From NCBI RefSeq assembly GCF_003725545.1, contig NZ_RJLN01000014.1, positions 1 to 64,000 of the forward strand: a stretch of DNA of 64,000 nt, in the 5' to 3' direction. The position numbers and the translations under genes were made by a program. This document shows, in pieces, positions 39,040 to 41,465 of the stretch; position 1 is the stretch's first letter; each line of letters begins with the position of its first letter. The notes under the pieces were generated by a model. The model saw only the letters and a program-made list of their open reading frames with translations. It had not been told where the DNA came from and ran no database searches. Origin of the DNA: Micromonospora solifontis (lineage in GTDB: Bacteria > Actinomycetota > Actinomycetes > Mycobacteriales > Micromonosporaceae).

Positions 39040-39116
39040 CGCGCACCGAGGGCGGGGGGAACGCCGTGGCCCGCCGCCCCCACGGGGGCGGCGGGCCACG
39101 AGCGGCAGAGCGTGGG

Positions 39117-39440
39117 TCAGGCGGCGACCGTGACGGTCACCTCGTTGATCCCGCGAGCGGCGGTGACGGCGGTGTCGCCGTTGCCGTGCCGGGAGAGCGC
39201 CCGCAGGGTCCAGTCACCGGGCGCGGCGAAAAACCGGAACTGGCCGGCCGGAGAGGTCACCACCTCGGCGGTGAACTCGCCGGTGGCGTCGAGCAGCCGG
39301 ACGTACGCGCCGGGGACGGCCTCCCCGGACTCGGCCTTGACCAGGCCGGTGATCACGGTCTCCTTCTCCAGGTCCAGGCTGGCCGGCAGCGGGGCGGCCT
39401 GGTCCGGAGCGGCGCAACCGGCGGCGGTGGGAGCAGTCAT
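39117..39440 (-). CDS. DUF1416 protein (SseC-like)
   Basis: Protein of 107 residues with a transthyretin/CarboxypepD-like beta-sandwich (ITGLVKAESGEAVPGAYVRL, SPAGQFRFFAAPGDWTLRAL). It matches DUF1416, the family of mycobacterial SseC, which lies directly downstream of the thiosulfate sulfurtransferase CysA2, as here (2-bp gap). A role in sulfur metabolism is inferred only from this conserved pairing. The early CAAP motif holds its single Cys. Confidence 0.85.
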   Translation of the reverse strand: MTAPTAAGCAAPDQAAPLPASLDLEKETVITGLVKAESGEAVPGAYVRLLDATGEFTAEVVTSPAGQFRFFAAPGDWTLRALSRHGNGDTAVTAARGINEVTVTVAA

Positions 39441-39442
39441 GA

Positions 39443-40318
39443 TCAGGCCTCCCCGACAGAGCTGTTGGGCCCGGCTTCGCCGGGCGTGTCGCCGAGCGCC
39501 ACCGGCACGCCGACCAGCGAGCCGTACTCGGTCCAGGATCCGTCGTAGTTCTTCACGTTGCGGTGGCCGAGCAGTTCCTGCAGGACGAACCAGGTGTGCG
39601 AGGAGCGCTCGCCGATCCGGCAGTAGGCGATGGTCTCCCGGCTGTCGTCCAGCCCGGCATCGGCGTAGATCTTGCGCAGCTCGTCGTCGGACTTGAAGGT
39701 GCCGTCCTCGTTGGCCGCCTTCGACCACGGGACGCTGATCGCGGTCGGCACGTGGCCGGCGCGCTGGGCCTGCTCCTGCGGCAGGTGGGCGGGGGCGAGC
39801 AGGCGGCCCGCGTACTCGTCGGGGCTGCGCACGTCGACCAGGTTCCGGGTGCCGATCGCGGCGACCACCTCGTCGCGGAAGGCGCGGATCGAGGTGTCCG
39901 GCTCCTGCGCGACGTACTGCGTCGCCGGGCGGGTCACCGCGTCGGTGACCAGCGGACGGGCGTCCAGCTCCCACTTCTTGCGGCCACCGTCGAGCAGCTT
40001 CACGTCGCGGTGTCCGTAGAGCTTGAAGTACCAGTACGCGTACGCGGCGAACCAGTTGTTGTTACCGCCGTAGAGGATGACGGTGTCGTCGTTGGCGATG
40101 CCCCGCTCGGAGAGCAGCGCCTCGAACTGGGCCTTGTTGACGAAGTCCCGGCGGACCGGGTCCTGGAGGTCGGTCCGCCAGTCCAGCTTGATCGCACCGG
40201 CGATGTGGCCGGTGTCGTAGGCCGAGGTGTCTTCGTCGACCTCGACGAAGACGACGCCCGGGGCGTCGATGTTCTTCTCGGCCCACTCGGCCGAGACGAG
40301 TGCGGTGTCGCGACTCAT
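39443..40318 (-). CDS. cysA2: Thiosulfate sulfurtransferase (rhodanese), CysA2-like
   Basis: Two-domain rhodanese of 291 residues that moves sulfane sulfur from thiosulfate to cyanide or thiol acceptors. The inactive N-terminal domain reads VDEDTSAYDTGHIAGAIKLD and LYGGNNNWFAAYAYWYFKLY. The C-terminal domain has the active-site Cys in the loop AYCRIGERSSHTWF. The sequence is strongly similar throughout to mycobacterial CysA2/CysA3. It is preceded by a 206-bp leader with a cysteine-rich ORF (40525-40602) and a palindrome, so expression is probably controlled by cysteine supply. Confidence 0.92.
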   Translation of the reverse strand: MSRDTALVSAEWAEKNIDAPGVVFVEVDEDTSAYDTGHIAGAIKLDWRTDLQDPVRRDFVNKAQFEALLSERGIANDDTVILYGGNNNWFAAYAYWYFKLYGHRDVKLLDGGRKKWELDARPLVTDAVTRPATQYVAQEPDTSIRAFRDEVVAAIGTRNLVDVRSPDEYAGRLLAPAHLPQEQAQRAGHVPTAISVPWSKAANEDGTFKSDDELRKIYADAGLDDSRETIAYCRIGERSSHTWFVLQELLGHRNVKNYDGSWTEYGSLVGVPVALGDTPGEAGPNSSVGEA

Positions 40319-40492
40319 CAGATCACTCCCTGGTGAGGATGGATGGTGAGCCTGCGCGCGGAGATTGAAGTTGGTGATTGTCGCACCACGCGCGGGACCC
40401 AGAGCTAGGAACGGATCACGGGTACGTGCGACGGCGCCGCTGCCGGGCGATCAGGGGGAAAACCGGAGGGTACGCGGACCCTGTGTGCCGGT

Positions 40493-40508
40493 GGCCGCCT
40501 AGGCGGCC
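40493..40508 (-). promoter_or_regulatory. Palindrome in the cysA2 leader (possible attenuator)
   Basis: GGCCGCCT-AGGCGGCC is a perfect 16-bp palindrome that starts 16 bp after the stop codon of the cysteine-rich leader ORF. Such a structure downstream of a leader peptide could change with ribosome stalling. The rest of the leader (40319-40490) shows no ORF or recognised riboswitch. Confidence 0.45.
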
Positions 40509-40524
40509 GAGGACAGCCCCGCCG

Positions 40525-40602
40525 TCAGATGACGGGGCGACACAGGCAGGTGGCCACGCGGCACAGGTCGACCGCGCGCCGTTTGGTGAGGAGCGTCCCC
40601 AT
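40525..40602 (-). CDS. Cysteine-rich leader peptide upstream of cysA2
   Basis: ORF of 25 codons, missed by length filters. It begins MGTLLTKRRA and ends VDLCRVATCLCRPVI, with three Cys codons within eight residues and four residues before the stop. TAGTCT ends eight bases before the ATG, so translation should start on a leaderless mRNA. Cys-codon-rich leaderless ORFs upstream of sulfur genes are known as cysteine-responsive attenuators in mycobacteria, including upstream of cysA2. Scarce charged tRNA(Cys) would stall ribosomes on the Cys codons and allow downstream expression. Role inferred by analogy; the ORF and its position are seen directly. Confidence 0.75.
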   Translation of the reverse strand: MGTLLTKRRAVDLCRVATCLCRPVI

Positions 40603-40682
40603 GAGGTGGGAGACTACCAGCCACTCCGCCCGAAGCCACCGGGCCGACCAGCATCCGGGACACCCGGCGGGCGGGTCCGGTC

Positions 40683-41465
40683 TCAGCTCACCGAGTTGAT
40701 CGGCACGTTCTTCGCGTCGGCGGTGACGACCAGCCCGTCCGGCTTCGGTTCCACCTTGCGGACGTTGAGCTGGAACGGCAGCTCCGGCAGGGGCACGTCG
40801 ATCGAGATGCCCTTGGCGTAGTTGGTCAGCACCTGTCGGGCCAGCGGCAGGTTCGGCAGACCCTCGGCGGTCAGCTCGTTGAAGCGCAGCGCGACCTTGC
40901 CGCCGGCGACCGTGACGTCGGCGGTGCCGTGCACGGTGAGCTTGACGCCCAGCACGTCCACCGGCGCGGTGACGGTGAGCTTGCCGTTCTGCTCACCCAG
41001 CTTCAGCCCGGGCCGGTCGAGCAGCTTGGCGAGGCTGTCGTAGGTGACCGTGCCGCGGCCGTCGACCGTCTCGGCGGTCACGTCCCCCTGCCGGCTGCGG
41101 AGGGTGTCCAGCGACGCCTTCACGTTGCGGGCGTCCACGTCGAGCCGGGGCACGTCGACCGCGTCGCCCTGCACCTTGCCCTGCACATCGGTGAGCACGA
41201 TCGAGATGTGCTGGTACTTCCCGGCCAGCACCTGGGTGAGGAACGGGAAGCCGGCCACGTCGACCTTCGGGGGCGCCGAGGTCGCGTCCTGCTTGGCGAC
41301 CTCCTGCTCGACCTGGTCGGCGATGGCCCGTTCGGCCGCCCCGGCCGCCAGCCGGTCGGCGACCACCAGCAACCCCGCCAGGACCAGCAGCAGGACCACG
41401 AAACCGGTCAACACCCGGCGACCACGTCGCCGGGGTCGCTCCTCGTACGCCGGGGCCTCTGCCAC
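40683..41465 (-). CDS. DUF2993 (LmeA-like) envelope protein
   Basis: Protein of 260 residues with an Arg-rich N-terminus, one membrane helix (VLTGFVVLLLVLAGLLVVAD, about 18-37) and an extracytoplasmic DUF2993 domain. The domain has VDVAGFPFLTQVLAGKYQHI and VHGTADVTVAGGKVALRF. Mycobacterial LmeA of this family acts in lipomannan maturation. The tunnel-like fold suggests phospholipid binding. GTG 41465 has AGGAGG four bases upstream. The longer open frame to 41516 lacks such support. Confidence 0.82.
   Translation of the reverse strand: MAEAPAYEERPRRRGRRVLTGFVVLLLVLAGLLVVADRLAAGAAERAIADQVEQEVAKQDATSAPPKVDVAGFPFLTQVLAGKYQHISIVLTDVQGKVQGDAVDVPRLDVDARNVKASLDTLRSRQGDVTAETVDGRGTVTYDSLAKLLDRPGLKLGEQNGKLTVTAPVDVLGVKLTVHGTADVTVAGGKVALRFNELTAEGLPNLPLARQVLTNYAKGISIDVPLPELPFQLNVRKVEPKPDGLVVTADAKNVPINSVS

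Follow-up and report, generated by a model that had tools for sequence, protein, structure and literature searches.

The short open reading frame (ORF) upstream of cysA2 in Micromonospora solifontis encodes a genuine leader peptide, as its strong conservation shows, and its family membership brings a system known from mycobacteria to Micromonospora and the family around it. We consider it fairly probable that this peptide, translated from a leaderless transcript, senses cysteine and controls translation of the cysA2-DUF1416 operon. In the alignment of the intervening spacer we identify two competing conserved folds that are predicted to end on the cysA2 start codon. The leader also obeys a codon-level rule that we did not expect: the Cys nine residues past the Asp of its VDL motif (D+9; all offsets are counted from this Asp) is almost always encoded by the rare UGU, at this one fixed place.

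The leader ORF and its relatives

The ORF lies on the minus strand of the window (the whole 64,000-nt stretch analyzed), where it reads from an ATG at 40602-40600 to a TGA at 40527-40525, with Cys codons at positions 14, 19, and 21. The features of the locus are as follows.

40525-40602, minus strand: leader ORF, MGTLLTKRRAVDLCRVATCLCRPVI followed by TGA, 25 codons (NF042933/NF042934)
40555-40581, minus strand: family block RRAVDLCRV, codons 8-16; residues conserved, codons variable in 61 class-wide leaders past a motif filter
40540-40542, minus strand: codon 21, the third for Cys (TGT), at D+9 relative to Asp12; proposed regulatory codon
40611-40616, minus strand: -10-like hexamer TAGTCT, 8 nt 5' of the leader ATG; TANNNT spacing found across loci
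40493-40508, minus strand: 16-bp palindrome GGCCGCCTAGGCGGCC, a variable spacer hairpin 3' of the leader stop
40326-40330, minus strand: Shine-Dalgarno GGGAG of cysA2, read from the sequence, inside the loop of helix H5 (below)
39443-40318, minus strand: cysA2, rhodanese-type thiosulfate sulfurtransferase (PF00581, two stretches)
39117-39440, minus strand: DUF1416 gene, the second gene of the operon (PF07210, 138.3 bits)

A sequence-only reading had pointed to a 25-codon ORF about 200 bp 5' of cysA2, to TAGTCT eight bases before its ATG, and to a 16-bp palindrome soon past its stop. All three are in place: the gap from the leader stop to the cysA2 ATG (40318) is 206 nt on the minus strand, the hexamer occupies 40616-40611, and the palindrome 40508-40493. 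The gene upstream of the leader is LmeA-like (PF11209). Past the DUF1416 gene, a long, almost perfect GC-rich inverted repeat without a T run (39065-39100) is perhaps the end of the operon.

The leader peptide had no match in Pfam, and Rfam gave none at E up to 10 across 40000-41000. In NCBIfam, it scores 61.1 bits (E 5.7e-17, positions 3-27 of 27) against NF042933, "Ms5788A family Cys-rich leader peptide" (curated cut-off, 45 bits), and 39.5 bits against NF042934 (cis_reg_atten, putative leader peptide; cut-off, 27 bits). Matches to NF042933 over the cut-off occur in 41 of 61 relatives, including 37/37 same-genus genomes; at the family level, 200 genomes gave matches with E up to 1e-4 in 196 and over the cut-off in 154. 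The reading frame, the three Cys codons, and the downstream cysA2 are kept in all 37 same-genus loci, where cysA2 starts 182-216 nt past the leader stop; at one of them (L050), the usual stop is lost and reading continues for nine codons. A DNA pattern of the peptide core matched at least 119 named loci, and among the matches listed cysA2 starts downstream in 117 of 119, the other two having at most 164 nt of downstream sequence each.

Conservation of the peptide outside mycobacteria, which the sequence-only reading had left conditional, is thus borne out by the 37 genus genomes and the 117 of 119 listed loci, and the loss of frame and Cys codons in relatives, named there as grounds for rejecting the proposal, was not seen. 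The family match likewise supports its assignment, as a type of leader, to the Cys-responsive attenuators. Two traits that it had singled out are in fact general: the RRxVDLxRV block is a hallmark of the family, NF042933 itself containing the leader, and spaced Cys residues are the usual form in cysA2-linked leaders (Cys at D+2 in 84/86, at D+7 in 83/86, and at D+9 in 86/86). A poly-Cys tail together with the same block is found in the order-level relatives L106 and L109 (LTKRRAVDLCRVAGCCCCCCSC). Contiguous Cys codons, the mark of a polycysteine attenuator, are absent here (codons 14, 19, and 21), and the leader is therefore filed under NF042933 by its score and not as polycysteine. It is this membership, together with the presence of cysA2 in 37/37 loci, that argues for an extension of the mycobacterial system.

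Some members of the family have other surroundings. In L053, L054, L057, L064, and L092, the gap from leader to cysA2 is 501-598 nt and contains an extra gene that, from its sequence, we take to resemble DUF4395. The M. solifontis genome itself holds two further copies, both below the NF042934 cut-off (coordinates are those of the loci L044 and L045):

L044 2715-2804, minus strand: extra leader, 25.1 bits, 5' of an SDF-type symporter
L045 1767-1898, plus strand: extra leader, 24.3 bits, 5' of an ABC transporter with SBP_bac_3

These transporters perhaps serve cystine uptake. Class-wide, the leaders precede what we take, from the translations, to be cysA2, DUF4395-like, cysteine-synthase-like, sulfite-reductase-like, and monooxygenase-like genes and transporters.

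Of the 119 named loci among the matches listed, 117 have TANNNT 12-14 nt 5' of the leader start, the two without the hexamer having at most 9 nt of upstream sequence each, and its background frequency is 14 of 5994 positions. This spacing is of the leaderless type, from which we infer that the transcript starts at the leader ATG. The sequence-only reading had also suggested scoring synonymous sites upstream of cysA2, and change in the leader core is low: over 37 genus genomes it is 0.018 there versus 0.201 in amino-acid-matched cysA2 codons, the three Cys codons having no cysA2 match and being counted on the leader side only, and over the wider family (40 sequences, in which the cysA2 of L096 aligned poorly) 0.176 versus 0.325. 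With so little synonymous change, the constraint falls on the RNA and not on the peptide alone. In the 61 class-wide leaders past the motif filter described below, the residues of the block are conserved and the codons variable, the same amino acid being carried by a different codon at 0.39-0.73 for the R, D, L, and R of the block; we conclude that the peptide is selected class-wide and, in the family of Micromonospora, the RNA also.

The UGU codon at D+9

In the 69 class-wide leaders, all of them found with a block profile, the D+9 codon is TGT in 67 and TGC in 1, and 1 leader lacks the Cys. A motif filter fixing D, L, and R was passed by 61 of the 69; Cys is present at D+9 in 60 of these, every one TGT, and the remaining Cys codons of the 61 are TGC in 68 cases and TGT in 17. 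The eight leaders dropped by the filter have TGT seven times and TGC once. Among cysA2-linked leaders, D+9 is TGT in 86/86, and the four omitted ones have TGT too. When the block profile was made to stop at D+4, where it is blind to the D+9 Cys, it led to TGT at D+9 in 30/30 loci, these being the best match per genome and many coming from genomes already counted. With a DNA pattern permitting TGT or TGC, D+9 is TGT in 119/119 named loci among the matches listed, related genomes being not independent in this or the other UGU counts; the other two Cys positions of these listed loci are TGC in 116/119 and 117/119. In 80 pattern loci among the matches listed, the long ORFs whose GC3 exceeds 0.85 contain 1161 TGC and 156 TGT. 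Neighboring codons vary freely, which speaks against simple inheritance as the cause of the constant UGU.

Two leaders depart from the rule. L144 (G340:C10:124480-125983; LLVRRRHVDFCRVTGAAC) is the sole class-wide leader found with TGC, and VDF replaces VDL in it; L150 (G331:C1:6969241-6970744; HIDLQRVCSAMGSQG), the one filtered leader without the D+9 Cys, has the block and a Cys at D+5. A second codon-level bias concerns the Ser at D+6, which is AGC in 37/41 class-wide leaders. Pairing with a downstream CACACAGG was considered as an explanation of the UGU and set aside: the partner exists in the window's own sequence and is not conserved in the alignment.

ARAGORN found one tRNA-Cys gene, with anticodon GCA, among 49 tRNA matches in an assembly that is 93% complete; with this lone tRNA-Cys, UGU would be read by wobble. 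The D+9 Cys typically stands three or four residues ahead of the stop. The R-x3-D-L-x-R block might act from the exit tunnel and aid a stall with the D+9 UGU in the A site, so that the peptide itself would be sensed besides the Cys codon; to this we give some tentative credence, short of favoring it, and it would add to the explanation preferred here and not replace it. It agrees with block residues that stay the same across leaders of many operons although the codons for them differ (0.39-0.73), with Cys at D+9 in 68/69 leaders, and with D+9 Cys in 30/30 loci, best match per genome, of the block-only profile. However, all 69 leaders were found by a profile of the block itself, the 61 were prefiltered for D, L, and R, and the invariance of these residues fails once the eight dropped leaders are included, L being present in 65/69; the block may, moreover, be kept for RNA reasons. 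A wider proposal, that the class as a whole combines this nascent-chain motif with an obligatory UGU Cys at D+9 in nascent-chain-assisted sensors of wobble decoding, is in our view rather doubtful. If wobble sensing does occur, stalling could report both the charging of tRNA-Cys and its modification state. The modification state of tRNA-Cys depends on sulfur supply, a link that is speculative here.

Competing folds in the spacer

Between the leader and cysA2 we find five helices, all on the minus strand.

40517-40537: H1, 40537-40531 with 40523-40517, the stop codon in its loop; 88.2% of cells paired (n = 75)
40429-40527: H2, 40527-40520 and 40517-40514 with 40442-40439 and 40436-40429; 93.7% (ten pairs) and 81.4% (two pairs) in 75 sequences
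40380-40432: H3, 40432-40426 with 40386-40380; 88.4% of cells paired (n = 75)
40351-40396: H4, the anti-sequestor, 40396-40386 with 40361-40351, one internal mismatch; 86.4% (nine pairs) and 76.1% (one pair) in 75 sequences
40309-40356: H5, the sequestor, 40356-40347 with 40317-40309, pairing the cysA2 start codon region; 93.9% of cells paired (n = 75)

Bases are shared between H1 and H2, H2 and H3, H3 and H4, and H4 and H5, and H2 is mutually exclusive with H1 and H3. The statistics derive from one alignment of 75 spacers with gaps under 400 nt (37 from the genus, 38 from the family). Fold A (H1+H3+H5) has 90.5% of its cells paired, against at most 60.3% in slid versions; it has 10 pairs with two-sided changes versus 3.0 in shuffles (0/500 as high), although slid versions also reach 10 and its 16 cells compare with up to 18 slid. 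Fold B (H2+H4) has 88.9% of its cells paired, against at most 49.5% when slid, with 38 two-sided cells versus 12.8 shuffled (0/500 as high) and at most 28 slid, and 13 two-sided pairs versus 8.0 shuffled and at most 10 slid. Paired changes thus favor fold B, and pairing and one-sided changes favor fold A, H5 foremost. A second alignment of the 75 gave comparable pairing, with 88.2% for H1, 96.2% for the H2 core, 85.3% for H4, and 94.2% for H5, but only 72.9% for H3 when its two outer positions were included. Of 79 named loci among the matches listed, 64 contain a six-base stretch complementary to the start region (13.7 expected, at most 22 in shuffles); three Phytohabitans, four Catellatospora, Rhizocola, one Micromonospora, and several metagenome bins are among the 15 loci that lack it. 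Since the helices were derived from some of the same sequences and the arms of H2 are partly coding, their conservation may also have other causes. The palindrome past the leader stop, which the sequence-only reading had noted, is variable as a hairpin (first pair gapped in 12/36 rows and paired in 17 of the 24 others) and dispensable, and we rejected it as the regulatory hairpin; the conserved helices were found instead.

Our preferred explanation, in which transcription start, ribosome stalling, and the sign of the cysteine response are inferred, runs as follows. Transcription would begin at the leader ATG, and when charged tRNA-Cys is scarce, the ribosome would wait at codon 21 (UGU), cover transcript nt 66-72, and block H1. 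H2 could then form and prevent H3, H4 would form and weaken the H5 hairpin on the cysA2 start codon, and cysA2 would be translated. With plentiful cysteine, the ribosome would finish the leader, H1, H3, and H5 would form, and cysA2 would be off. The leader would thus probably switch on a sulfur-metabolism gene when cysteine is short.

To mimic a stall at Cys3, the 5' part of the RNA was hidden as far as the ribosome would cover it, taken as 12 nt beyond the A site, and folding was computed for 53 of the 75 sequences, the 22 others being excluded because too few pairs are possible at the aligned positions. H2 changed from 0.08 to 0.73, H3 from 0.36 to 0.10, H4 from 0.34 to 0.54, and H5 from 0.52 to 0.43. 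When the RNA was cut before the start codon, H4 went from 0.28 to 0.62, versus 0.27 with the ribosome at the stop. A Cys2 stall covers part of the H1 5' arm and leaves H2 intermediate (0.40). As the Cys3 stall hides this arm and the Cys2 stall does so only partly, codon 21 would be the natural control codon. Imposed on the window's own sequence, H1+H3+H5, H2+H4, and H2+H5 have -88.6, -88.3, and -85.0 kcal/mol, and the lowest-energy fold of this RNA from nt 64 consists of H1, H4, and part of H5. The equilibrium unpaired fraction of the start codon was flat at every position of the hidden 5' end (genus, 0.17-0.23; family, 0.25-0.32); we rejected it as a read-out of the switch, and it is evidence against the model in its simple form. 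With such flat pairing, the switch would need folding during transcription.

The arrangement is that predicted for translation attenuation, with the start codon in a conserved hairpin and a conserved hairpin competing with it. The hairpin with a U run 5' of the gene that would mark intrinsic-terminator attenuation was not found, and between 39000 and 41000 the coding strand has no site resembling a terminator. With the same leader and stall, the output could instead be Rho-dependent transcription termination within the 206-nt spacer, if the stalled ribosome masks a site where Rho loads. We think this unlikely: it suits a coding strand without an intrinsic terminator, and it was raised for mycobacterial cys leaders in PMC1262725, which calls its own prediction rather weak, but the conserved elements of the spacer are helices ending on the cysA2 start codon, and the pyrimidine-rich stretch sits in a variable part. 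A role of the spacer element as another promoter or an operator of cysA2, with the leader of little relevance, is very improbable, for although some 100 nt 5' of cysA2 there is a conserved block that includes an interrupted inverted repeat, a search restricted to sigma-70-type sites found none, the arms hold while loop length varies, and the helices pair across the cysA2 start codon.

Known systems and significance

In Mycobacterium smegmatis, ribosomes were seen on the cysA2 uORF (Shell 2015, PMC4633059), and Cys attenuation is reported to act on translation (Canestrari 2020, as cited by PMC9031893 and PMC13236596). Like the NF042933 leader of mycobacterial cysA2/Msmeg_5788 (PMC4633059), the Micromonospora leader has cysA2 downstream, spacing of the leaderless type, and Cys codons near the stop. 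Unlike the mycobacterial Ms5788A case, in which the Cys codons are worded as contiguous (PMC9031893), it has three spaced Cys, and its 206-nt spacer carries predicted, conserved helices. It shares the block and the D+9 Cys with NF042934 leaders, and within that family, which at large precedes many kinds of genes, it represents a cysA2 subtype. The candidate cys leaders of Mycobacterium and, outside mycobacteria, of Propionibacterium acnes and Bifidobacterium longum (PMC1262725) resemble it as short ORFs with Cys near the stop and no terminator found, but are described there as runs of Cys codons, with no conserved hairpins reported. The uORFC-8-2 cysS leader of Rhodobacterales (PMC8632094) is likewise a Cys-codon leader, but with tandem, UGC-dominated Cys codons and an intrinsic terminator at its end. 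We found no report of the UGU rule, or of the leader in Micromonosporaceae, in the literature searched, in which coverage of subscription papers was poor.

Together, our results would extend cysteine control by the ribosome beyond mycobacteria, to Micromonospora and the rest of its family, and they predict a concrete RNA switch in a family so far known mainly by sequence. The predicted switch is well supported by the comparisons made here, and the codon-level rule deserves a direct test: a near-fixed UGU at a fixed distance from a peptide motif, common to the leaders of many genes, opens questions that can be put at the level of a single codon.
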